Assembly: GCA_025924315.1 (NCBI GenBank)
Contig: JAICIO010000019.1
Coordinates: 1-64,000 of the forward strand
Direction: 5' to 3'
DNA length: 64,000 nucleotides
From: Phycisphaerae bacterium
Lineage (GTDB): Bacteria > Planctomycetota > Phycisphaerae > Tepidisphaerales > Tepidisphaeraceae
Both the position numbers and the translations under genes were made by a program. Below, one piece after another: positions 9,003 to 36,852 of this stretch; within the stretch, counting starts at the first letter, position 1, and every line of letters begins with the position of its first letter. Below the pieces are notes generated by a model. The model saw nothing but the letters and a program-made list of their open reading frames with translations. It did no database searches and was not told where the DNA came from.

Positions 9003-9281
9003 CACTCCTTTCGCGTTCTCGCGAGAATGGTGAACGGTGGCACCGACATTCCTGTCGGTGATCGGACGCGGTAATCCGCGGCCGATATGCGTCGATGAGT
9101 ACATCGTCGCATCACAGGCAAGAATGCCTGTGCGACCGGAACTCACAGAGCTTCCGGGCCGATTGAACAACTGAGAACGCGAAAGGAGTGGCGTCGCCCT
9201 CCCGTGTATGGTCGCGTGCGTTCGCCCCGGTGCGTGGATGAGTGGTGCAACCGATTTGTTCGATCGTGGTACAGTGAACCG

Positions 9282-10502
9282 ATGCTGCCATTTTTCAAAG
9301 AGCTGGGGGATACAGTTTTGGCGCGTTGGAAGCGCGAGAACTTTTCTCTGGCCAAGTTTCCCGAAATCGCGCGATCGGCGCTCGACAAAAATCCACCTGC
9401 CAGTCGGGTCGATCTGTCCGCGCTCATGCGTGATTTTCTACTTGAAGAAGATCAACCCTTTCAAACCGATTCGGACTTCGGCGAGCCGGAAATCGTGGCG
9501 TACAGTCACCCGCGGTTTTATATCCAGCTCCTATTCTGGATGGACGGAACCACCGCCATTCACCAGCATGAGTTTTCCGGCGCGTTTCACGTGATGCACG
9601 GGGCGAGCATTCATGCTCATTATGGGTTTGAGAAAGCGCAGTCGATTACGCCTTACTTGCGCGTCGGCGACGTGCGATTGAAGGAGATCAAGCTTTTGGA
9701 ATCGGGAAGCACGGTGCCCATCACATCCGGCCAGGACGACATTCACTCGCTGTTCCATCTCGATTCGCCGTCGGTCACGGTGGTCGTGCGCACGCAGCAC
9801 GATCCCGGTACCGGCCCGCAGTTCAATTACCTGCCGCCGCACATCGCCATCGATCCGCACTTCAGCGACAAGCTCACGATGCGTCGCAAGCAACTGCTCG
9901 AAGTGTTGGAGCAGGCCGAAGACACGGGCTATGCGGAACTGGTGACGGAGATGATCGCCGACCTGGATTTTGAGCGCGGGTTTTCCGTGCTGCATCACAG
10001 CATGGCGTATCTACAGCAGATCGAACAGTGGAAGCCCGTGCTCCATGTATTTGAAAAGAAGCACGGCGCCATCGCCGCCGGCGTCGCATCGACCCTGAAA
10101 GAAGAGGTTCGGCGAAGCATCATCAAAAGTTGGCGCAGCACGATCATCGAGCCCGAGCATCGGTTCTTCCTCGCGCTCCTGATGAACGCGCCGACGCGCG
10201 CGGATTTGCTCTCGCTCGTGAAGCAACGATTTCCCCGCAAAGAGCCCATCGCCATTGTCCTTCGCTGGCTGGAAGAATTGACGGAGATTTCGGATGAAGG
10301 CGTCACCATCCTGGACTCCACTTTTCCCGAAGCCCTCGAGGTCGAAAGCGAGGCCCAGCGCGACTTGTTCCTGGCAGCGTGCCGGTACTTCATGAAACCC
10401 GGCAAGACGCTTCCCGCCGCCCTGCGTAATCTCGCCGCGACCGACATCAAGCAACTGCGGAATGCCTTCGCGGAATCGTCGTTGAGCCTTTTGACGGTCT
10501 AA
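9282..10502 (+). CDS. cupin-like protein of unknown function
   Basis: A 406-residue cytoplasmic protein that I do not recognise by name. The start at 9282 is chosen because the ORF is compact from there and the preceding 26 codons overlap repeat-like sequence. Around residues 85-110 a His-rich stretch (AIHQHEFSGAF, then SIHAHYGFE) resembles the metal-binding beta-barrel of cupins such as cysteine-dioxygenase-like proteins. The C-terminal half is helical with no clear motif. It lies 28 bp upstream of an MFS carrier on the same strand, so the two may be cotranscribed. A metal-dependent dioxygenase-like role is possible but unproven. Confidence 0.6.
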   Translation: MLPFFKELGDTVLARWKRENFSLAKFPEIARSALDKNPPASRVDLSALMRDFLLEEDQPFQTDSDFGEPEIVAYSHPRFYIQLLFWMDGTTAIHQHEFSGAFHVMHGASIHAHYGFEKAQSITPYLRVGDVRLKEIKLLESGSTVPITSGQDDIHSLFHLDSPSVTVVVRTQHDPGTGPQFNYLPPHIAIDPHFSDKLTMRRKQLLEVLEQAEDTGYAELVTEMIADLDFERGFSVLHHSMAYLQQIEQWKPVLHVFEKKHGAIAAGVASTLKEEVRRSIIKSWRSTIIEPEHRFFLALLMNAPTRADLLSLVKQRFPRKEPIAIVLRWLEELTEISDEGVTILDSTFPEALEVESEAQRDLFLAACRYFMKPGKTLPAALRNLAATDIKQLRNAFAESSLSLLTV

Positions 10503-22441: not shown

Positions 22442-22491
22442 ACGGTGGATAGGTCTAGGGTCGTTTGTATCCAAACTTACAGGGAGCCCAA

Positions 22492-22944
22492 ATGGATCAA
22501 GTAACCCTCTCATCGCCTCTTGGAACTCGATTCACCCGCAATCAGGCTGCACTTAGCGATCCCGCGTATCAGGCCTATCAACTCTTGCGGGTGGGTTTCA
22601 TTGCGGCGCCGATCATCGCGGGGGCCGACAAGTTCTTCCATTTGCTCGTCAACTGGGACAACTACTTGGCCCCCGTGGTCGATCGTGTCCTCGCTGGGCA
22701 CGGTCACGCCTTCATGCTCATCGTGGGCGTCATTGAGATCATCGCAGGCATCGGCGTAGCGCTTCGCCCACGGATCTTCTCATACGTCGTGGCGGTCTGG
22801 CTGCTCGGCATCATCGTGAACCTGCTGTTAATTCCCGCATCAAACCCGTTGCCGCACTATGACGTGGCGCTGCGAGACTTTGGTCTGTTGCTCGGCGCGT
22901 TGGCGCTGGGACGACTCAGCGGACGTTTTGCGCGGTCTGCGTGA
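22492..22944 (+). CDS. DoxX-like membrane protein (copy 1)
   Basis: A 150-residue protein with four membrane segments. It contains DKFFHLLVNWDNYLAP near residue 45, GHGHAFMLIVGVIEIIAG near 75 and a final MPHYD/LPHYDVALRD segment, all shared with its paralogue at 41627-42076 (about 70-75 percent identical by eye). DoxX-like proteins sit in the inner membrane near redox enzymes. A GGGAG site precedes the ATG at 22492. It is the first gene downstream of the SufR-like operator and is followed by AhpD-like and flavoprotein genes. Confidence 0.8.
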   Translation: MDQVTLSSPLGTRFTRNQAALSDPAYQAYQLLRVGFIAAPIIAGADKFFHLLVNWDNYLAPVVDRVLAGHGHAFMLIVGVIEIIAGIGVALRPRIFSYVVAVWLLGIIVNLLLIPASNPLPHYDVALRDFGLLLGALALGRLSGRFARSA

Positions 22945-23004: not shown

Positions 23005-23373
23005 ATGTCACCGCAAACACCGATCTATCCGACCACCACCAGCGAGTTCGTTGAGGAACGGAATGCGCTGGCGCCGAAGACAGCGGAAGCATTCAAAGCA
23101 TTTAGCCAGCGCGTCTTTGCCGACGGGGCGATCTCTGCACAGACGAAACAACTGATCGCTGTTGCCGTCGCGCATGTGACCCAGTGTCCCTATTGCATCG
23201 TCGGGCACACTCGATCCGCGCTGCGGCATGGGGCGACGCCCGAAGCAATTATGGAAGCGATCTGGGTCGCGGCCGAAATGCGCGCAGGAGGGTCTGTCGC
23301 CCATTCTGTGTTAGCGATGGAGATGATCTCGCAGGTTCGGAATGAAAAGTCGGAAGTGAAGGTGGCGCAATGA
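23005..23373 (+). CDS. AhpD/carboxymuconolactone decarboxylase-family protein
   Basis: A 122-residue protein of the AhpD-like fold. The redox-active motif CxxC followed by a histidine is present (VTQCPYCIVGHTRSALRHG), as in alkylhydroperoxidase AhpD, which passes electrons to peroxide reductases. The start ATG at 23005 has a GAAAGGAAGGAG ribosome site. It overlaps the next small gene by four bases. Role in peroxide or peroxynitrite detoxification is inferred from family and neighbours. Confidence 0.85.
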   Translation: MSPQTPIYPTTTSEFVEERNALAPKTAEAFKAFSQRVFADGAISAQTKQLIAVAVAHVTQCPYCIVGHTRSALRHGATPEAIMEAIWVAAEMRAGGSVAHSVLAMEMISQVRNEKSEVKVAQ

Positions 23374-23956: not shown

Positions 23957-25159
23957 ATGCCCAGGGAAACATACGCATACGTCATCATCGGAGGCGGGTT
24001 GGCGGGTGCGGCGGCGGTGGAGGGCATCCGGGAAGTCGATCAACGGGGATCGATTCTCCTCCTCGGCGCGGAGAAAGATCCGCCCTACGACCGGCCTCCC
24101 TTGTCGAAGCAACTCTGGACCGGAGGGAAAACGGTCGCAGAAATTGTTCTGCACGATGAGGCATTCTACGAAAAGAACGCGGTGGACCTGCGCCTCGCGA
24201 CCGAGGTAACGCAAATCGATGCGGCTGCGCACACGATCCGCGACAGCCAGGGCAACGTCGATCACTATGAACGACTGCTCCTGGCGACAGGAGGCACGCC
24301 ACGTCGCCTGGACATTCCGGGCGGCTATCTGGAGGGTGTCAGCTATTACCGAACGCTCCACGATTACCATCAGTTGCGGGCGACTGCGGTCGAGGGAAAG
24401 TCGGTTCTGGTTATCGGGGGCGGATTCATCGGTTCGGAGCTCGCGGCGTCACTGCGTACGAACAAGCTCGCAGTGACGATGGTGTTCCCTTCGCGGTGGC
24501 TCGTGTCGCGCGTGTTCCCCGAAGCGTTGGGACGCTATTTGACGGAGCAGTATCGCGCCAAGGGCATTGAAATTCTCGACGGCGATATTCCGCTGTCGAT
24601 TCAGCGGGAGAGAAGCGGGTATTTGACGCGGACGCGGGCAGGCCGCGAGATCCGCACCGATCTTGTCGTTGCGGGCATTGGCATCACGCCGAACGTATCG
24701 CTCGCGCAAACCGCCGGACTTTCCGTCGGGAACGGGGTGATCGTAAACGAGTTTCTGCAGACCTCCGCACCGGACATCTATGCGGCCGGCGATATCGCGC
24801 TCTTTCCGGAGGCCGGCTTCGGACCGCGGCGACTGGAGCACTGGGACAACGCCGTCAGCCAGGGCAAGCATGCCGGTCGCAACATGGCCGGCGCGCGCGA
24901 GCGCTTCACCTCCCTTCCGTTCTTCTTCTCTGACCTGTTCGAATTTGGATATGAAGCGGTCGGCGACATCGACAGTCGGCTGACGACCTTTGCGGACTGG
25001 CAGGAGGAAAACAAGACCGGTGTGATTTACTACCTGGACGGCAACCGCCTGCGGGGCGCGATGATGTGCAACGTCTGGGGAAAGGTGGACGCCGCCCGCG
25101 CGCTCATACAAAAGAACGAAGTGGTATCAGTGGAAACCTTGCGCGGCGCGATCCAGTGA
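23957..25159 (+). CDS. FAD/NAD(P)H-dependent reductase (ferredoxin/rubredoxin reductase or AIF-like)
   Basis: A 400-residue pyridine-nucleotide disulfide-type flavoprotein. The FAD Rossmann motif is [14 protein letters not shown] at residues 9-22, the NAD(P) Rossmann motif [16 protein letters not shown] near 155, and the second FAD contact [15 protein letters not shown] near 270. A C-terminal reductase/dimerisation domain of about 90 residues follows. It has no redox-active CxxC, so it passes electrons to a separate partner such as a ferredoxin or the AhpD-like protein. It ends the SufR-regulated run, if that run is a single operon. Confidence 0.88.
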
Positions 25160-25283
25160 CCGTACAGGCAGAAGCACCTGCTGGGTGAGATCGCCGACAA
25201 CCGTGAGGCAACTGCGAAGACGATCAGTCCGAAACCTCACTCGTGCCAGAGGCGAACCCGTTACGCGGCAAGGAGTCAATCGA

Positions 25284-25634
25284 ATGATTCAACTCAAAAG
25301 AGCTTACGACAAGCCATCGCCAAAGGATGGTTCAAGAATCCTTGTCGAGCGACTCTGGCCGCGAGGACTGTCCAAGGAGAAGGCGGCGCTGGACCTTTGG
25401 CTGAAGAACGTGGCCCCAAGTACGGAACTCCGCAAATGGTTCGGCCATGACCCCGCGAAATGGAAGAAGTTTGAGCAGAGATATTGGAAGGAGCTTCGCG
25501 GGCAGAAGGAGGCGGTGGACTTCTTGCGCCACAAAATCAAGCAGGGAACCGTCACACTCGTATACGCCGCACACGACGAGGAGCATAACGGCGCTTTGGC
25601 CCTGAAGGAGTTTCTGGAGCATCGGAAGGGCTGA
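25284..25634 (+). CDS. DUF488 family protein (YeaO-like)
   Basis: A 116-residue cytoplasmic protein. AAGGAG lies eight bases upstream of the ATG at 25284. Family signatures are [20 protein letters not shown], then [31 protein letters not shown] and the ending [23 protein letters not shown]488 proteins are widespread and uncharacterised. It lies just downstream of the flavoprotein gene. Confidence 0.9.
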
Positions 25635-25896: not shown

Positions 25897-26691
25897 ATGA
25901 ATGATCAAACCAACCCCGGGCGAGCGGTCATTCTCCGCATACGGCGCCAAGACCGGCCGGATACGTTGCCGCGCTGGGAAGAGTTTTCCGTGCCGCGCCG
26001 GCCGAACATGAATGTGATTGCCTGCCTTCAATTCATCGCCGCCAACCCTCTCACCACGGATGGAACGAAGACGACTCCTGTTGTCTATGACAGCGGCTGT
26101 TTGGAAGAGGTGTGCGGCGCCTGCACGATGGTCATCAACGGCAAAGTGCGTCAGGCCTGTTCGGCGTTGGTGGACAAGCTCAGCGAACCGACCTCCGGCG
26201 CGGGCGCTGCCGGCGAGCCGATTACGCTCGAGCCGATGCGGAAATTCCCGATCGTCCGCGATCTGTCCGTCGATCGTCAGCGACTGTTTGACGACCTCGC
26301 GCGCGCGAAGTGCTGGGTCCCGATCGACGGTACGCATGATCTTGGTCCGGGACCGACCATCTCAGATGAATTGCAGGAAGAGCGCTATCCGCTGTCGCGC
26401 TGTATCAGCTGCGGCTGCTGCCTTGAAGCGTGTCCGCAATACACCCCAGCCAACCGCTTTGTGGGCGCTGCGATTTTTAGTCAGGTGAATTTATTCAACG
26501 TTCATCCGACTGGCAAAGCGCTGAAGGACGATCGGCTGGACGTGATGATGGGCGAGGGCGGCATTGCGGATTGCAGCAAGGCCGGCAATTGCGTGGTGGT
26601 TTGCCCGAAGGACTTGCCCAATCTGAAATCCATCGCAACGGTTGGCCGGCAAGCGACGCTGGCCGCCCTCAAGAACTTCTTCGGCGGATAG
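25897..26691 (+). CDS. orphan succinate dehydrogenase/fumarate reductase iron-sulfur subunit-like protein
   Basis: A 264-residue protein with the three Fe-S sites of SdhB/FrdB. A plant-type 2Fe-2S is visible in DSGCLEEVCGACTMVING followed by a fourth Cys 12 residues on. The C-terminal half has CISCGCCLEACPQY and CSKAGNCVVVCPKD. No flavoprotein (SdhA) or membrane subunit gene is nearby. The next gene begins five bases after the stop and encodes a cytochrome b-molybdopterin fusion, so this protein probably feeds or drains electrons for that enzyme. The start at 25897 follows GAGAAGG. Confidence 0.87.
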   Translation: MNDQTNPGRAVILRIRRQDRPDTLPRWEEFSVPRRPNMNVIACLQFIAANPLTTDGTKTTPVVYDSGCLEEVCGACTMVINGKVRQACSALVDKLSEPTSGAGAAGEPITLEPMRKFPIVRDLSVDRQRLFDDLARAKCWVPIDGTHDLGPGPTISDELQEERYPLSRCISCGCCLEACPQYTPANRFVGAAIFSQVNLFNVHPTGKALKDDRLDVMMGEGGIADCSKAGNCVVVCPKDLPNLKSIATVGRQATLAALKNFFGG

Positions 26692-26695
26692 GCGA

Positions 26696-28399
26696 GTGAC
26701 GGCACCAGCACATCTTCCGCCGACATCCGATGATAGGGCTCGGAGAAGTGATGCGCAGGTCGCGAGCGCATCCGCCATTGTTGCAACCTCGCCGCGCGTG
26801 CGGCTCTCGATCCTTTTGCCCCTGGTGTTGCCGATGGTTCTCGCGCTCATTGCGGCATACGTGCAATGGATGACGGTCGGCCTTCCCACGGTACCCGCGC
26901 CGCAGCAACTCACGCCCGAAACGGCGACTTTGCCCTATGGCTTTCCCGCTTGGATTGGAATCACCCACTACGTCAACCTTTTGTTCATGGTCCTGTTGGC
27001 CCGCAGCGGGTTGCAGATTCTCATGGATCATCCCAGGCTGTATTGGAACGTGCACTGCACTCCCGGGACGGAGTGGGTGCGCTTCACGCCGGTTGAGGTG
27101 CCTCTCGATCGACTGTACACCGCGAAGGATGATGCCCGGTATTTGAGCCCGTGGATCGGTCTTCCCGGTGGCCGGCATACGCTGGGGCTGGCGCGGCATT
27201 GGCACTTCGTGAGTGCTCTGTTCTGGGTGTTGAACGGCGCGGTTTATATCACGCTTCTATTCGCGACGAGCCATTGGCATCGCATCGTTCCGACCTCCTG
27301 GCGGATCATACCGGATGCCTGGGCGATGTTCGTTCACTACGCCACCTTCCATCTTCCGCCGGAACCCAATGGTTTCTATCAATACAATGCGCTACAGCAA
27401 CTGAGTTATTTCATCGTGATCTTCATCCTCGCGCCGCTGTCGATTCTGACCGGACCGGCAATGTCTCCAGCGCTGGTCAATCGTTTCGCCTGGTATCGCA
27501 AACTGCCCGGCAACCGGCAGGTCGGCCGGTCGATTCATTTTTTGTTGCTGTGCGCGTACGTCCTCTTCGTCATCGCGCACGTCTCGATGGTGTTCCTGAC
27601 CGGGTTCGTGCGCAACATGAACCACATCGTCATCGGTACGGACAACCTGCTGCGGTTCGGCATGTACATCGGCCTGAGCGGTTTGGTCATCCTGTTTCTG
27701 CTGAACGTGATGGCCAACTGGTCGACGTGGCTGTTCCCGCGCGCCGTTCAGCGCGTGGGTGACGCGCTCGTGAATCCCGTCCTGCGTCTGCTGCTCGCGC
27801 GCCACGCACCGCGGGCCGAGTACACGGTCGAAGACATCTCGCCGTTCATGTGGCCCAATGGAAAACTACCGACTTCCCAAGAATGGAAAGCGCTGGTCGC
27901 GAGAGGCTTCAAGGATTACCGGCTGAAGGTCTGCGGACTCGTCGAGAATCCCGTGGAATTGTCTTTGGAACAAATTCGGGCGATGAGCAAGCGCACTCAA
28001 ATCACGTTACACCACTGCATCCAGGGTTGGTCTGGCATCGCCCAGTGGGGCGGCGTGCCCGTGGCAGAGCTGATAAAGCTCGTGCGCCCCAAACCCAACG
28101 TCAGGGCAGTCGTCTTCTACTCCTTCGGCGAAGGGCTGGAGGGCGGTCAGTATTACGACAGCCACACGATCGAGAACGCCCGGCAACCCCAGACCTTGCT
28201 GGCGTACGAGATGAACTTCAAGCCGCTCACCGACGTCCACGGCGCGCCGCTGCGACTCCGTGTGGAGAACCAGCTCGGCTTCAAAATGGTCAAGTGGATC
28301 CAGGCGATTGAATTTGTGGCAGACTTCAAACACGTTTACCAAGGCGAAGGCGGCTACAACTCGGATCACGAGTTCTTCGACACCATGGCCGACATTTGA
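26696..28399 (+). CDS. cytochrome b-type membrane domain fused to a sulfite-oxidase-family molybdopterin domain
   Basis: A 567-residue protein. GTG at 26696, five bases after the iron-sulfur gene, is the likely start because the frame from there is translationally linked. The N-terminal 330 residues have four or more membrane helices with histidines suited to heme b (HYVNLLFMVLLARS, LARHWHFVSALFWV, SIHFLLLCAYVLFVIAHVSM). The C-terminal part matches the oxidoreductase molybdopterin-binding fold; the Moco cysteine is at about residue 441 in LHHCIQGWSG. It resembles a YedY/YedZ pair fused with the order reversed. The domain may face the periplasm. Substrate unknown. Confidence 0.85.
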   Translation: MTAPAHLPPTSDDRARRSDAQVASASAIVATSPRVRLSILLPLVLPMVLALIAAYVQWMTVGLPTVPAPQQLTPETATLPYGFPAWIGITHYVNLLFMVLLARSGLQILMDHPRLYWNVHCTPGTEWVRFTPVEVPLDRLYTAKDDARYLSPWIGLPGGRHTLGLARHWHFVSALFWVLNGAVYITLLFATSHWHRIVPTSWRIIPDAWAMFVHYATFHLPPEPNGFYQYNALQQLSYFIVIFILAPLSILTGPAMSPALVNRFAWYRKLPGNRQVGRSIHFLLLCAYVLFVIAHVSMVFLTGFVRNMNHIVIGTDNLLRFGMYIGLSGLVILFLLNVMANWSTWLFPRAVQRVGDALVNPVLRLLLARHAPRAEYTVEDISPFMWPNGKLPTSQEWKALVARGFKDYRLKVCGLVENPVELSLEQIRAMSKRTQITLHHCIQGWSGIAQWGGVPVAELIKLVRPKPNVRAVVFYSFGEGLEGGQYYDSHTIENARQPQTLLAYEMNFKPLTDVHGAPLRLRVENQLGFKMVKWIQAIEFVADFKHVYQGEGGYNSDHEFFDTMADI

Positions 28400-29736: not shown

Positions 29737-30921
29737 ATGCAGCGACTTGTTATCCGTGGATCTGTCGTCGCGTCCGTCTTCATCGCCGCGGCGATGCTGC
29801 TCCTTGCCGGTCGATTCATCGGGATTCGGCAGGATGCCGTCGCGTCGGTGCGCGGGGAGCATGGCTCTTCCGAGCGGGAACGAGCGCCTCTCGACGAGTT
29901 CGTTGCGAAGCTTCCGCCGAAATCAAGTCTCGGCGTGGTTCAGGGCGAGAAAACGATCGCGCCTGTGGTGCCGGCGCCGATTACGCGCGCCGAGAACAAG
30001 ATCGTTGAATACAAGCTGACCGTGCGGGAGACGAGCGCGAAGATCGCGCCAAATCTGACCTACAGTTCGCTCTGGAGCTTCGACGGGGTTGTGCCCGGCC
30101 CGGTGATGCGAGTGAAGGTTGGCGACGTGATTCGGTTCACGCTGGCCAACGATGCAAAGAGCGTCACCAACCACAACATCGATTTTCACTTCGTTTCGGG
30201 TGCGTGCGGTGGCTGTTGCGATACCACTGTTTCGCCGGGTGAGGCGCGGACAATCGAAACCCGCGCGTTGTATCCCGGATTGTTCATGTATCACTGCGCT
30301 TACAAGGAGAAGGGGAACATCGCCGCCGTGCACATTGCCAACGGGATGTACGGGTTTCTCATTGTGGATCCCGAGCTGCCTTTGCCGACCGTCGATCACG
30401 AATTCATTCTGGTCGAGAGCGAATTCTACGTGGAACGAGTGGGAAAGAACCTGGGCGCCTGCTCCTATTCGGATCTGGTTGCCGAGACGCCGACTCACTA
30501 TTTCTTCAACGGAAAATCCGCGGAGCTGAATCCTCCGCTCACGGTTGCGGTCAATGACCGCGTGCGATTGTACGTCGGCAAAGGCGGCGTAAACGGCTTC
30601 GCGGCGTTTCACGTGATCGGAGCGATATTCGACAAGGTCTACCCCGACGGCGGCACGCTCGATCCCCCGCGCGAGCACGGCATCCAGACCGTGACAGTGC
30701 CTTCGGGCGGCGCGGCCATCGTCGAATTCGTCACCCCCGTCCCCGGCACGCTGACCGCGGTCGATCACAATCTTTCGCGGGACTATTTCAAAGGGCTTGG
30801 GCAGGTGATCAACGTTGAGGGTTCGCCGAATCCCGAAATCTATCAGGTTGTCGGCCCTACTCCAGCAACATGCGCAGTCGAAAAAGTTGTGCCGAAATCT
30901 GTTCCACCACCGGCGCAATGA
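29737..30921 (+). CDS. nirK: copper-containing nitrite reductase (NirK-like)
   Basis: This 394-residue periplasmic enzyme reduces nitrite to NO in denitrification. A GAGGAG site precedes the ATG at 29737, and residues 8-30 form a signal anchor. Type 1 copper ligands: H146 (NHN), C187 and H199 with M204 (AVHIANGMYG). Type 2 ligands: H151 (IDFH), H186 (YHC) and H292 (FHVIG). D149 in IDFH matches the catalytic aspartate. Unusually, the loop after H151 carries C157, C160 and C161 (GACGGCC) where normal NirK has glycines and alanines. It is 16 bp upstream of a hemerythrin gene. A simple multicopper oxidase is less likely. Confidence 0.87.
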   Translation: MQRLVIRGSVVASVFIAAAMLLLAGRFIGIRQDAVASVRGEHGSSERERAPLDEFVAKLPPKSSLGVVQGEKTIAPVVPAPITRAENKIVEYKLTVRETSAKIAPNLTYSSLWSFDGVVPGPVMRVKVGDVIRFTLANDAKSVTNHNIDFHFVSGACGGCCDTTVSPGEARTIETRALYPGLFMYHCAYKEKGNIAAVHIANGMYGFLIVDPELPLPTVDHEFILVESEFYVERVGKNLGACSYSDLVAETPTHYFFNGKSAELNPPLTVAVNDRVRLYVGKGGVNGFAAFHVIGAIFDKVYPDGGTLDPPREHGIQTVTVPSGGAAIVEFVTPVPGTLTAVDHNLSRDYFKGLGQVINVEGSPNPEIYQVVGPTPATCAVEKVVPKSVPPPAQ

Positions 30922-30937
30922 CACAAAGGAGTCGATC

Positions 30938-31768
30938 ATGCCCGTTCAACTTGGCGCAGCACCCGCACACGGATTCGATGAGCCATTGGGCTTACTCGGC
31001 GATTGCCACCGCCGTATCGAGAATTTCCTCTCGATCCTGCAGAAGGTTGAAGGATCGGCCGGCGAAGCGCTCGATCAACCACAACGACAGGCCGTCGAAA
31101 CAGCCCTGACCTATTTCCGCACGGCCGCGCCTCGACACAACGAGGACGAAGAACGGTCCCTCTTCCCATTGCTGCGAAATCGCTCCGAGCCGCTCGTCCG
31201 CCAAGCGATCGAGATCATTGACTCGCTCGAGGCGGATCATGCCGTGGCCGCGCCTGCGCACCGCGAAGTGGATCGCTTGTATCAAACGTGGATGGACGCG
31301 GGGCATCTGGCAAGCCGCGATCGAGCGAAGCTCAGTCTTCTGCTCGACGAGCTCGTTCAGATGTACCAGAGGCACATTCAAATCGAAGACGAGAGTATTT
31401 TTCCCCTGGCCGCCCAACTGCTCAATGCACAGCAGCGTGGCCGCCTGGGGAACGAAATGGCCAAACGTCGCGGCATCAGCGGCGCGGCTTCCCTCAAACC
31501 CAATGGAGTTTCAACCATGTCCGCAAAGCACACGATTGACGTTCGTTCGATCCCCGGTCCGCAGCGGCATCCTCTCATCTTTCAAACCTTTGAAGGGCTT
31601 GCGATCGGCGAAGCGCTGGAACTGATTAACGATCACGATCCATTCCCATTGCACAACCAGTTCAATTTCATGAAACGCGGGCAGTTTGCCTGGGAATACC
31701 TCGAGCAAGGCCCCGAGCTCTGGCGCGTGAAAATCAGTCGAATTGCCGCGCAGCCTGTGAAGGTGTGA
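30938..31768 (+). CDS. hemerythrin HHE domain fused to DUF2249
   Basis: A 276-residue cytoplasmic protein. AAAGGAG precedes the ATG at 30938. Residues 18-165 form a hemerythrin-like four-helix bundle with iron-ligand histidines and acids (GDCHRRIENF, HNEDEERSLFP, SLEADHAVAAPAHREVD, YQRHIQIEDESIFPL). After a linker a DUF2249 domain occupies about 195-276 (starts IDVRSIPGPQRHP, ends YLEQGPELWRVKISRI). This pairing is known in proteins that bind O2 or NO. Its position directly after nirK suggests it handles NO made by that enzyme. Confidence 0.9.
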   Translation: MPVQLGAAPAHGFDEPLGLLGDCHRRIENFLSILQKVEGSAGEALDQPQRQAVETALTYFRTAAPRHNEDEERSLFPLLRNRSEPLVRQAIEIIDSLEADHAVAAPAHREVDRLYQTWMDAGHLASRDRAKLSLLLDELVQMYQRHIQIEDESIFPLAAQLLNAQQRGRLGNEMAKRRGISGAASLKPNGVSTMSAKHTIDVRSIPGPQRHPLIFQTFEGLAIGEALELINDHDPFPLHNQFNFMKRGQFAWEYLEQGPELWRVKISRIAAQPVKV

Positions 31769-31986: not shown

Positions 31987-33696
31987 TTACGCGACAATCC
32001 CAATCAACACATCCCCCTCGTCCGCGGTCGCGTGGTTTGTGCCGTCGCCGCCGTCGAGGCGATCGATGCCGCTGTCGCCTTTGAGGTAATCGTCGCCGGC
32101 TTCGCCATAGAGGCGGTCCTGGCCGGATCCGCCGTAGAGCGAGTCGTTGCCGTTTCCGCCGTACACGCGATCGCTCCCGCTGTCCCCCGAGAGCGTGTCG
32201 TTTCCGCCGTTCCCGTTGAGCCGATCGTTCCCCGCACCGCCAAAGATCAAATCCCGCCCGCCACCGCCCGTGAGCGTATCGTTCCCATCGCCCCCGCGCA
32301 GCGTGTCGTTGCCGTCACTCGCTTGGACATAGCTGCCGATGATTCCCGCGCCGAGCGAAACCGCGTCATCTCCCCGCCCGCTGTGCACGATAACTTCCTG
32401 CACTTGGGATGCATCGAATCGCGATGTGGTGCTGTTGATGTTCACGAAGATTTGCTTGCCGTGGAGCGACAGTGTGATCGCATCATTTGCACCGGTTCCA
32501 GCGACGTCCAACACATGCTGATCGAGCACCGCAGACCCCGAGACCGCGCGCAGGCGACCATCTCCGCCTTCAACGGATGCCAGGAAAACACGTACGTCTG
32601 TCGTGGACGTGGCATCTGCGTTCGTTCCCAAACCATACTGCGCGCCCTCGGGGGCGACGAGGAGCGAGTTCAGCACGGGGCCGGTCAACTGCGCGACGCC
32701 TTGGCTACCGTAGCGAAGATCGATCGTGCCATCGCTGTTTAGTCGTTCGATGTACGTTCCCTTATTTCCCCCGGCCAAATAGATCTTTCCATCTGCATCA
32801 ACCGTCATCGCATTCAGAGTCGGACTGTCGAGCGTCTTCTGGTCCAACTCCTTGCCCTGTGGTGAGAAGCGGACCAGCACATTCCTACGGCCGTCCCAAG
32901 TGAGCGCGAATAGTTCCTCGCTCGGCGTCACGGCAATCGCAAGGTCGTCAATCGCATCGCTGGAAGCGACGACTATATTTATATTGAATGATTGGTCTTC
33001 CGTCCCATCCGAATGCAGGCGATCGGCGTAGACCGTTTGGTCTGAGTACCTGGCGGTATAAATGTTGTCATGGGCATCGACCACGAGTGGGCCAACATCG
33101 ATGCTCGCCTTCCCGTTATCGCCGAATGACGAGTCGATCTGACCGTCGATGGTAAGACGGCGCAGTTCCGTGCTCGTATTTCCGTCCGCATCCGGCACGG
33201 TGTAGCCCCCGACCAATAGCTTCCCGTCCGATTGAAAGCCGAAATCCGAGACACTTACGGAGTAGCTGTCCGTCGTCAGATCAGAGAACTCGATGAAGCC
33301 GTCACTGCTGAAGCTCGTATCGATCGAACCATCCGCACGAAACACGTTGACGCAAATGTCCTCCGGAAAACTGTTATTGACCGTGTCCGCGCTGCCAATC
33401 GCGATTCGACCGCTCACCGAATCGACAGCGATTGCAGACGCAAAGCGGTGTCGCAAGGACGTGACCTCGCCATTCGTGCCGAAAGTCGTGTCAAGGGATC
33501 CGTCGCGGTTGTAGCGGTTGATCTTAAACTGACCGGTAAAGTCGATGGGATGCAGGACGAGAAGCTTGCCATCGGGCGTCAACGCAAGCTTGGCCGCGAA
33601 ATCATCCGAATGGAGATCAACGACGCCGTTTGTGCCGAACGCGGTATTAAGATCCCCCGCACTGAGCATCCGCCGCGGTTCGAGTTGGTCGATCAT
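31987..33696 (-). CDS. LEPR-leader surface protein with delta-60 repeats and C-terminal RTX calcium-binding repeats
   Basis: A 569-residue protein that starts MIDQLEPRRMLS, the LEPRxLLS sorting leader of Planctomycetes. From residue 15 to about 390 are delta-60-type repeats (for example GSLDTTFGTNG, GSIDTSFSSDG, GTIDLRYGSQG) that form a beta-propeller. Residues 455-560 hold nine or so GGxGxDxLxG-type RTX repeats (GGDGNDTLTGGGG, GGAGNDRLNGNGG, GDSGSDRVYGG) that bind calcium outside the cell. It is probably exported and attached to the cell surface. Its 5' end, with about 40 bp upstream, is duplicated at 34332-34427. Confidence 0.88.
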   Translation of the reverse strand: MIDQLEPRRMLSAGDLNTAFGTNGVVDLHSDDFAAKLALTPDGKLLVLHPIDFTGQFKINRYNRDGSLDTTFGTNGEVTSLRHRFASAIAVDSVSGRIAIGSADTVNNSFPEDICVNVFRADGSIDTSFSSDGFIEFSDLTTDSYSVSVSDFGFQSDGKLLVGGYTVPDADGNTSTELRRLTIDGQIDSSFGDNGKASIDVGPLVVDAHDNIYTARYSDQTVYADRLHSDGTEDQSFNINIVVASSDAIDDLAIAVTPSEELFALTWDGRRNVLVRFSPQGKELDQKTLDSPTLNAMTVDADGKIYLAGGNKGTYIERLNSDGTIDLRYGSQGVAQLTGPVLNSLLVAPEGAQYGLGTNADATSTTDVRVFLASVEGGDGRLRAVSGSAVLDQHVLDVAGTGANDAITLSLHGKQIFVNINSTTSRFDASQVQEVIVHSGRGDDAVSLGAGIIGSYVQASDGNDTLRGGDGNDTLTGGGGRDLIFGGAGNDRLNGNGGNDTLSGDSGSDRVYGGNGNDSLYGGSGQDRLYGEAGDDYLKGDSGIDRLDGGDGTNHATADEGDVLIGIVA

Positions 33697-35160: not shown

Positions 35161-36852
35161 ATGGCATCGTTGTCGTACATCTCGCCGGACCAAACCGTGC
35201 GACAAGTCGCAAGCGCATTCCCCGCGTGTGCCGAGCTGTTGGAACGCTGGCCCGGCGCGCGGCGGGATGATCGATGGACGCTCCAACAACTCAGTGCGTT
35301 TGCGCGTCAAGTGGGCGTGGAGGAACAATTGTTGCTTCAGGAGCTTGCCGACGCGGCGGGCGTGCCCTTGCGATCCCATCTCGACGCATCGCGACGAGCG
35401 CGTTCACCTTTACCGTTGATCTTTACAGCGTTGATTGTCGGGATCAGTCTGGGCACAGCGTTCGGCGTTGGATTGCTGTGGCGCATTGCGATGGGCGGCG
35501 GTTACGGAGTGGTGTCCGGCGCCAGCATTCATGTGCATGGGCTGGCGCAGCTTTGGGGTTGGATGGCGCTGTTCATCTTCGCCGTGGCAGCGCATCTGCT
35601 GCGCCAGAATACGACACGGCCCGCGCCGCGATGGATGGAATGGCTCGCCGCGGGGTTCATACTCATCGGGCTTTTCGCTTTTTTCGCGGGACTGAATGAG
35701 CGCGTGCGCGCGTTCATACCCGGCATCGACATCGCGGGCTCGGGCCTGCTGCTTGTGGCGGCGATCCTGTTCGGCGCCGGGCTTGCATGGTCGCTCAGTG
35801 GAGCAGCAAAAAGCCAGCGCCGGCACGGGTTGATTTTTCTGATCGCGTGGCTGTGGATCTGGGCAGGTACGGACCTTTTCCTCCGCATCCATTACGAAAA
35901 CACGCCCGTGCTTCCCGACTCGGCGCGTCCGCTCCTGATCGCTCTGCCGGTGCTGGGCCTCGCGACCAACGCCATTTACGGCTTTGGCATCCGACTGATT
36001 CCGGGACTTTTGAACATTGGTCGGCTGCGCTCCCGATGGTTTGGTCCTGGGCTCTTACTGCATAACGCGGGCTTGTGTCTGTTCCTGATTCCGCTTCGCA
36101 CCTCTCAGATCGTCGGCGCTGTTTCCATGTTCGCAGGCGCAATATTTTATCTGATCGGGATGGATGGGCTGCGAAGCAAACCGTCGCGTCCGATTTACGG
36201 AATTGATCCGCGCGGCCATATCCCGATCCGCGTCGCGTTCTTCTGGCTCGTGTGCGGGCTGGCGATGATCGTGGCGCAGCAGTTCCACCCGGAGTGGCCG
36301 CACGCATACAGTGGCGCGTGGCGTCATGCACTTACCGTCGGGTTCATCATGACGATGATCCTGGGCGTCGGATATCGAATGATCCCGATTTTCATCAGGC
36401 AGCCGCTGGCTTCGACGCGGCTGATGCTGGTTTCGGCGATGCTGATCATCGTCGGCAATGCCGGACGCGTCACACTGGAATTGCTGACCATCGGCGGTTG
36501 GACGTGGAGTTTTCGCCTGATGGGCATCACCGGTGTGCTGGAACTGGCCGCGCTGATCTTGTTCGCCATCAACATTGCGCTGACGGGATGGCTGCGCCGG
36601 CGCGTTTATGTGGGCACTTCGCCGCTCACGCCAAAAACGCGCGTTCAGGAAGCCGTCAACGTTCGTCCCGAGATCCAGGATTGCCTGCGCGCGCTGGGCA
36701 TCACGATGTTCGACACCGCGCCGTTCATTGCGCCATCGATGACCTTCGGCGCGCTGGCGCTGGCGTCGGGGATGACGCCGCGGCAGTTGCTCAACGCGCT
36801 GCGCGAATCATCGTCGGACGCTTCGCTTGCGCCTCGCGCGGTCTGCACTTAG
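35161..36852 (+). CDS. NnrS-like heme/copper membrane protein flanked by DUF1858-like domains
   Basis: A 563-residue inner-membrane protein with about twelve helices between residues 80 and 490. Conserved histidines and an HxH motif (ASIHVHGLAQLWGW), plus GFGIRLIPGLLNI and HALTVGFIMTMILGVGYRM, match NnrS, which counters nitrosative stress and protects metabolism from NO. The N-terminus (ISPDQTVRQVASAFPACAEL) and C-terminus (DTAPFIAPSMTFGALALASG) each resemble a DUF1858/ScdA-N domain, known from the iron-sulfur repair protein ScdA/YtfE and related proteins. The gene diverges from an Rrf2 regulator. Confidence 0.82.
   Translation: MASLSYISPDQTVRQVASAFPACAELLERWPGARRDDRWTLQQLSAFARQVGVEEQLLLQELADAAGVPLRSHLDASRRARSPLPLIFTALIVGISLGTAFGVGLLWRIAMGGGYGVVSGASIHVHGLAQLWGWMALFIFAVAAHLLRQNTTRPAPRWMEWLAAGFILIGLFAFFAGLNERVRAFIPGIDIAGSGLLLVAAILFGAGLAWSLSGAAKSQRRHGLIFLIAWLWIWAGTDLFLRIHYENTPVLPDSARPLLIALPVLGLATNAIYGFGIRLIPGLLNIGRLRSRWFGPGLLLHNAGLCLFLIPLRTSQIVGAVSMFAGAIFYLIGMDGLRSKPSRPIYGIDPRGHIPIRVAFFWLVCGLAMIVAQQFHPEWPHAYSGAWRHALTVGFIMTMILGVGYRMIPIFIRQPLASTRLMLVSAMLIIVGNAGRVTLELLTIGGWTWSFRLMGITGVLELAALILFAINIALTGWLRRRVYVGTSPLTPKTRVQEAVNVRPEIQDCLRALGITMFDTAPFIAPSMTFGALALASGMTPRQLLNALRESSSDASLAPRAVCT

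Follow-up and report, generated by a model that had tools for sequence, protein, structure and literature searches.

A duplicated succinate dehydrogenase iron-sulfur protein repeatedly paired with a cytochrome b-molybdenum cofactor fusion protein in planctomycetes and Chthoniobacterales

In the soil planctomycete genome studied here, an extra, duplicated copy of the succinate dehydrogenase iron-sulfur protein SdhB is encoded beside a protein in which a diheme cytochrome b is fused to a molybdenum cofactor (Moco) domain. The domains, invariant ligands and fold of this pair, the duplication of SdhB and the repeated independent co-location of the two genes are established by the present analysis of the window, i.e. 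the whole stretch of 64,000 nucleotides, and of related genomes. Judged from the SdhB sequences, the pairing arose independently in separate lineages, namely through at least two duplications in planctomycetes and in Chthoniobacterales. This repeated pairing suggests that the SdhB copy and the heme-molybdenum enzyme work together.

The SdhB copy and the fusion protein of the window

As described in the first-pass annotation, an SdhB-like protein adjoins a cytochrome b-molybdopterin fusion protein (Table 1). The two genes are indeed closely spaced, although the gap amounts to 4 bases (26692-26695) and not to the five given there. Promoter and terminator scans yielded nothing beyond chance expectation. 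In the profile search, the SdhB matched NF006391/PRK08640 over its full length with 360 bits (cut-off 244), and the cysteines of all three complex II clusters are present as had been claimed, at residues 68/73/76/88 for [2Fe-2S], 169/172/175/179 for [4Fe-4S] and 226/232/236 for [3Fe-4S]. With a score above the curated cut-off and the three cluster motifs, it belongs to this SdhB type.

Table 1. Features of the window around the SdhB and fusion genes
Feature	Position	Strand	Remarks
DoxX-like membrane protein	22489..22944	+	no Pfam match; named by eye; 77% identical neighbour in G324
Carboxymuconolactone decarboxylase/AhpD-like protein	23005..23373	+	recurrent neighbour
AIF/ferredoxin-reductase-like FAD protein	23957..25159	+	recurrent neighbour
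DUF488 protein	25278..25634	+	in 9 of 11 clusters with orphan SdhB and fusion gene
SdhB	25897..26691	+	extra paralogue of B. subtilis type (PRK08640) with intact motifs for all three Fe-S clusters; ATG start at 25897, stop at 26691, 264 aa
Fusion protein	26696..28399	+	six-helix diheme cytochrome b (FdnI/HyaC fold) and sulfite-oxidase/MsrP-fold Moco domain; GTG start at 26696, stop at 28399, 567 aa
Heme ligand candidates His91 (26966), His170 (27203), His281 (27536), His295 (27578)	26966..27580	+	
Cys441, predicted Mo ligand in HHCIQGWSG	28016..28018	+	invariant (62/62)
Copper nitrite reductase-like protein	29737..30921	+	TIGR02376, 243 bits, below cut-off of 296
Hemerythrin and DUF2249 protein	30938..31768	+	start inferred within longer ORF 30815-31768

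The fusion protein matches PF01292 at residues 83-306 (43.6 bits, cut-off 30.1) and PF00174 (Oxidored_molyb) at residues 406-542 (112.8 bits, cut-off 24). The candidate heme ligands His91, His170, His281 and His295, the last two of which are 14 residues apart, are kept across 62 aligned relatives with one row gapped at position 281. In the AlphaFold2 model (mean pLDDT 83.6) six long hydrophobic helices are seen. Residues 81-320 of the model superimpose on FdnI (1kqf_C) with a Z score of 11.2 and an rmsd of 3.8 over 176 residues, and HyaC (6g94_B) is matched with a Z score of 9.6 over 138 residues. Thus, by its domain, the four heme histidines and its fold the membrane part is a member of the PF01292 or FdnI-HyaC group, and the domain match together with the Mo-ligand cysteine places the C-terminal part in PF00174.

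The Moco part of the model reaches Z scores of about 19-20 to SorA, MsrP and yeast nitrate reductase, with SorA as the best match. The active-site motif C-x-x-x-W-S is MsrP-like, and NF003767 (MsrP) is the best NCBIfam match, with 66.5 bits against a cut-off of 207 and hence below the level for assignment to MsrP. The scores for the SorA, SorT and SoxC equivalogs (49, 33 and 37 bits) are likewise below their cut-offs of 600, 570 and 420. Residues 407-541 of the model also match chain A of PDB entry 9a64 (Z 11.2), an integrative model titled YlaL-SdhA. Apparently, this entry combines a sulfite-oxidase-fold protein with a succinate dehydrogenase flavoprotein on the basis of crosslinks, and the match could hint at another link between the sulfite-oxidase fold and complex II; a paper text on 9a64 was not found in the literature searched. 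A second, shorter PF00174-like gene (G000:C19:67480-67911) follows the fusion gene on the same contig at a distance of about 40 kb, and its product is 31% identical to the Moco domain.

Positive-inside counts place the basic residues of the fusion protein in the N-terminus, in loops 2 and 4 and in the linker to the Moco domain, which is therefore predicted to be cytoplasmic. A twin-arginine before the last helix (helix 6) occurs in 4 of the 62 rows and is absent from the window protein. Near the N-terminus, a twin-arginine is found in 43 of 62 rows, leaving some doubt about the topology.

SdhB and complex II genes elsewhere in the genome

No SdhA is encoded near the window SdhB, in agreement with the earlier remark that it has no flavoprotein partner. 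As an argument for a new complex, however, this remark does not hold and was rejected. A second SdhB of the same type on contig C21, 74% identical to the window SdhB, does not adjoin SdhA either, and sdhC-sdhA are found on contig C181 without sdhB, so that the missing neighbour alone says little. Judged from the gene order that it shares with G300/L118, the C21 copy would be the housekeeping SdhB. Hence the window SdhB is an orphan locally, yet SdhBs of this type are as a rule unlinked from SdhA in this lineage. Contig C18 bears a different, complete complex II operon of the sdhBCDA type.

Distribution of the fusion family and of the pairing

In the genome collection 546 relatives of the fusion protein were confirmed, 80 of which were kept for comparison. 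They stem from Planctomycetota including anammox bacteria, Verrucomicrobia, Bacteroidota, Acidobacteria and others. In one anammox-family genome (L034, G248) an in-frame stop splits the fusion gene (9226-10286), which appears to be broken. The spread is patchy (7 of 294 genomes in the phylum sample), and the fusion is found at 82% identity on contigs labelled as another phylum. For most relatives, among them three with 82-83% identity to the window protein, no SdhB neighbour was seen up to a distance of about 6 kb; since some contigs end before this, the count of SdhB neighbours is a lower bound.

Within the window's order the fusion is encoded in 7 of 26 genomes, and five of these seven (G000, G322, G323, G324 and G327) have an orphan second SdhB a short distance upstream in the same orientation. 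In the 19 genomes lacking the fusion no such orphan SdhB occurs (Fisher p 3e-4 with the genomes treated as unrelated); G330 possesses a second SdhB, but this one adjoins SdhA. An orphan SdhB beside the fusion gene was also detected in 4 of 10 fusion-bearing genomes of the Pirellulales (G303, G304, G754 and G770) and in 2 of 10 of the Chthoniobacterales (G309 and G312), the names of these two orders being partly those in the record titles of the loci used as centres. In a third Chthoniobacterales genome (G310), the same SdhB type is again an orphan and adjoins a nitrite reductase fusion on another contig. Altogether, a full-length SdhB is close to the fusion gene at 12 places, and an adjacent SdhA accompanies it at one of them (Dyadobacter, L101). 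The pair is thus neither unique to the window genome nor general to the fusion family, and the conservation asked for in the first-pass annotation is found within lineages and not family-wide.

Separate origins of the extra SdhB copies

In a tree of 32 SdhB sequences, the extra planctomycete copies fall into two clades: the five from the window's order (99/92) nest among that order's housekeeping copies, and the four from Pirellulales (100/93), which have a longer stem branch, adjoin a housekeeping copy of Pirellulales. Grouping all nine planctomycete extras together was rejected by the AU test (log-likelihood difference 120, p-AU 3e-55), and with it the idea of a single transferred lineage of all extra SdhBs. 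The Chthoniobacterales extra SdhB belongs to a different subfamily (NF005746/PRK07570, 409 bits). The strongest argument for a functional link between SdhB and the fusion protein is that the same kind of subunit was recruited repeatedly.

Evolution of the extra copies of the window's type was no faster than that of the housekeeping copies (mean identity 0.76 within the former and 0.73 within the latter), and the former have retained all SdhB features. In the window's order the extra copies carry changes at positions 194 (I to F), 198 (R to K/N) and 202 (acidic or polar to V/I/L), all in the C-terminal cluster domain. Gly250, which is fixed in these extra SdhBs, was rejected as a sign of a new function, since it is also present in outgroup housekeeping SdhBs; from this comparison it is probably the ancestral state.

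Gene neighbourhood

In several of the clusters that contain an orphan SdhB and the fusion gene, the DUF488 gene is located between the two, and this arrangement, SdhB-DUF488-fusion, is seen both in the window's order and in Pirellulales. Flavin reductases of the FNR or AIF type are also recurrent around the fusion gene. In other genomes, the fusion gene is found near NosZ, a cupredoxin and NnrS (L195), near a copper nitrite reductase scoring above the cut-off (L102) or near the flavohemoglobin Hmp, also above the cut-off (L186). In two loci, proteins joining a DoxX-like membrane part to a copper nitrite reductase-like domain (L084:2797-4380 and L094:10578-12140) are encoded near the heme-Moco gene and adjoin an orphan SdhB and DUF488. 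The neighbours nitrite reductase, NosZ, NnrS, Hmp and hemerythrin, chosen by eye and without background comparison, point to nitrogen-oxide respiration or NO defence. If SdhB and the fusion protein work together, it is probably in nitrogen-oxide metabolism or defence.

Further genes were noted along the way. At 35161-36852 the window encodes a protein with a weak match to NnrS (21 bits, cut-off 28) that is possibly NO-related, and at 31987-33696 a large protein with an LEPRRMLSA start motif and repeats, as is typical of planctomycete surface proteins. In L178 and L179 (G322 and G323), the extra SdhB is closely preceded on its strand by a gene for a NuoG-like Fe-S protein of some 533 residues.

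Proposed function and alternative explanations

For topology, direction of electron transfer, substrate and physical contact of SdhB we infer the following arrangement, in which we place somewhat less than even confidence: a quinol-linked, cytoplasm-facing molybdoenzyme of nitrogen-oxide physiology, served by the SdhB paralogue as an Fe-S relay. In the FdnI/HyaC-like four-helix core, the four histidines would hold two b hemes that link the quinone pool with a cytoplasmic Moco site of the MsrP/YedY subclass (C-I-Q-G-W-S). Because of one extra helix in front, the core would be inverted relative to FdnI, and the surface contacting the catalytic subunit in FdnI would lie in the cytoplasm here. The heme-Moco enzyme would most likely be a reductase in nitrogen-oxide respiration or NO defence. 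The duplicated SdhB, recruited beside it in three lineages, would most likely be a cytoplasmic Fe-S wire docking on the heme domain, which may bring electrons from a flavoprotein other than SdhA (AIF-like or FNR-like) or exchange electrons with the hemes. Possibly, the AIF/ferredoxin-reductase-like FAD protein of the window is this flavoprotein partner. For the heme-Moco enzyme SdhB would be dispensable, as most family members, including 82% identical ones, have no SdhB neighbour. Of the new membrane electron path proposed at the outset, the functional link between SdhB and the fusion protein is what has gained support, since the pairing is conserved within lineages and was rebuilt independently. 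We consider less likely than not the more far-reaching reading of a novel respiratory complex, in which an SdhB paralogue has left succinate dehydrogenase and, on at least three occasions, come to serve a diheme cytochrome b-molybdenum reductase as its Fe-S subunit, the cytoplasmic substrate being either a nitrogen oxide or some oxidised compound arising from NO stress.

Nearly as likely as the Fe-S relay, and in itself a serious possibility, is that the extra SdhB is a spare for complex II, expressed once Fe-S clusters are being destroyed by NO or oxidants, and never touches the heme-Moco enzyme. Both genes would then have an operon in common only via the same stress response, and a spare subunit made under stress would produce the same pairing pattern as a relay. 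The high identity to the housekeeping SdhB, the absence of acceleration in the window's clade and the retained SdhB features fit continued service in complex II and argue against the relay. Furthermore, the SdhB duplicated in each of the two planctomycete orders was that order's own, Chthoniobacterales employed another type, and such a variety of subfamilies is what one would anticipate with the SdhA of each lineage as partner. The stress-related neighbours (Hmp, hemerythrin, nitrite reductase, peroxiredoxin-like and AhpD-like proteins) are also consistent with a spare subunit. However, SdhB stays close to the fusion gene in several gene orders, often in tight same-strand arrays with DUF488 that were repeatedly rebuilt, and these arrays as well as the changes at positions 194, 198 and 202 favour the relay, while the longer stem branch of the Pirellulales copies likewise speaks against a mere spare.

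A further alternative concerns direction only and is compatible with either role of SdhB: the Moco domain could oxidise a cytoplasmic donor such as sulfite, with the hemes reducing quinone. The sulfite-oxidase fold and the best structural match to SorA are in line with this, but given the MsrP-like motif, MsrP as the best, albeit sub-threshold, NCBIfam match and a gene context of nitrogen-oxide reduction rather than sulfur oxidation, we consider it unlikely. About as improbable is hitch-hiking of both genes on a mobile stress island with their proximity devoid of functional meaning. The patchy spread, the 82% identical fusion on contigs of another phylum label and the island-like mixture of DUF488, cupin, AhpD-like and DoxX-like genes would suit such an island. 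However, only one SdhB lineage would be expected on a single mobile unit, whereas the products of at least two separate SdhB duplications, and in a third lineage a different SdhB type, are found at this location.

Overall, the repeated pairing of a duplicated SdhB with the same molybdoenzyme constitutes a natural experiment that makes a specific partner testable. It also ties a large uncharacterised Moco family, with members in anammox bacteria, Acidobacteria and Bacteroidota as well, to nitrogen-oxide metabolism.

Comparison with known systems

In the literature searched we found neither an earlier description of this cytochrome b-Moco family nor one of an SdhB paralogue serving outside complex II, and the sole true comparator is Sco3746. 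Its family of polytopic heme b-MoCo proteins is on record, and Sco3746 has five helices, a conserved twin-arginine before the last one and a Tat-exported Moco domain (Tooke et al. 2017, PMC5449189). The window fusion resembles Sco3746 in combining, on one chain, membrane helices for two predicted b hemes with a C-terminal Moco domain. It differs in having six helices and a Moco domain predicted to be cytoplasmic, and the fusion family has an even number of helices and does not conserve the twin-arginine directly before the last helix that marks the Sco3746 type.

With MsrPQ (YedYZ), the fusion protein has in common that a heme b membrane protein feeds an MsrP-fold Moco domain with the motif C-x-x-x-W-S. 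MsrP, however, is a separate periplasmic protein and MsrQ belongs to another heme b family, whereas the window chain is fused, its heme domain is FdnI/HyaC-like and its score with the MsrP model is below the cut-off. The window SdhB is like the B. subtilis-type SdhB (PRK08640/NF006391) in being full-length with all clusters, but it is an extra copy in a separate clade and is linked to a heme-Moco gene and not to sdhA/sdhC. Finally, the heme domain shares with FdnI and HyaC the fold and the four histidines with the same spacing of the last pair, but one helix is added before and one after, the predicted orientation is opposite and a Moco domain is fused. The fusion family is a variant of the known heme b-Moco architecture with a new partner pattern.
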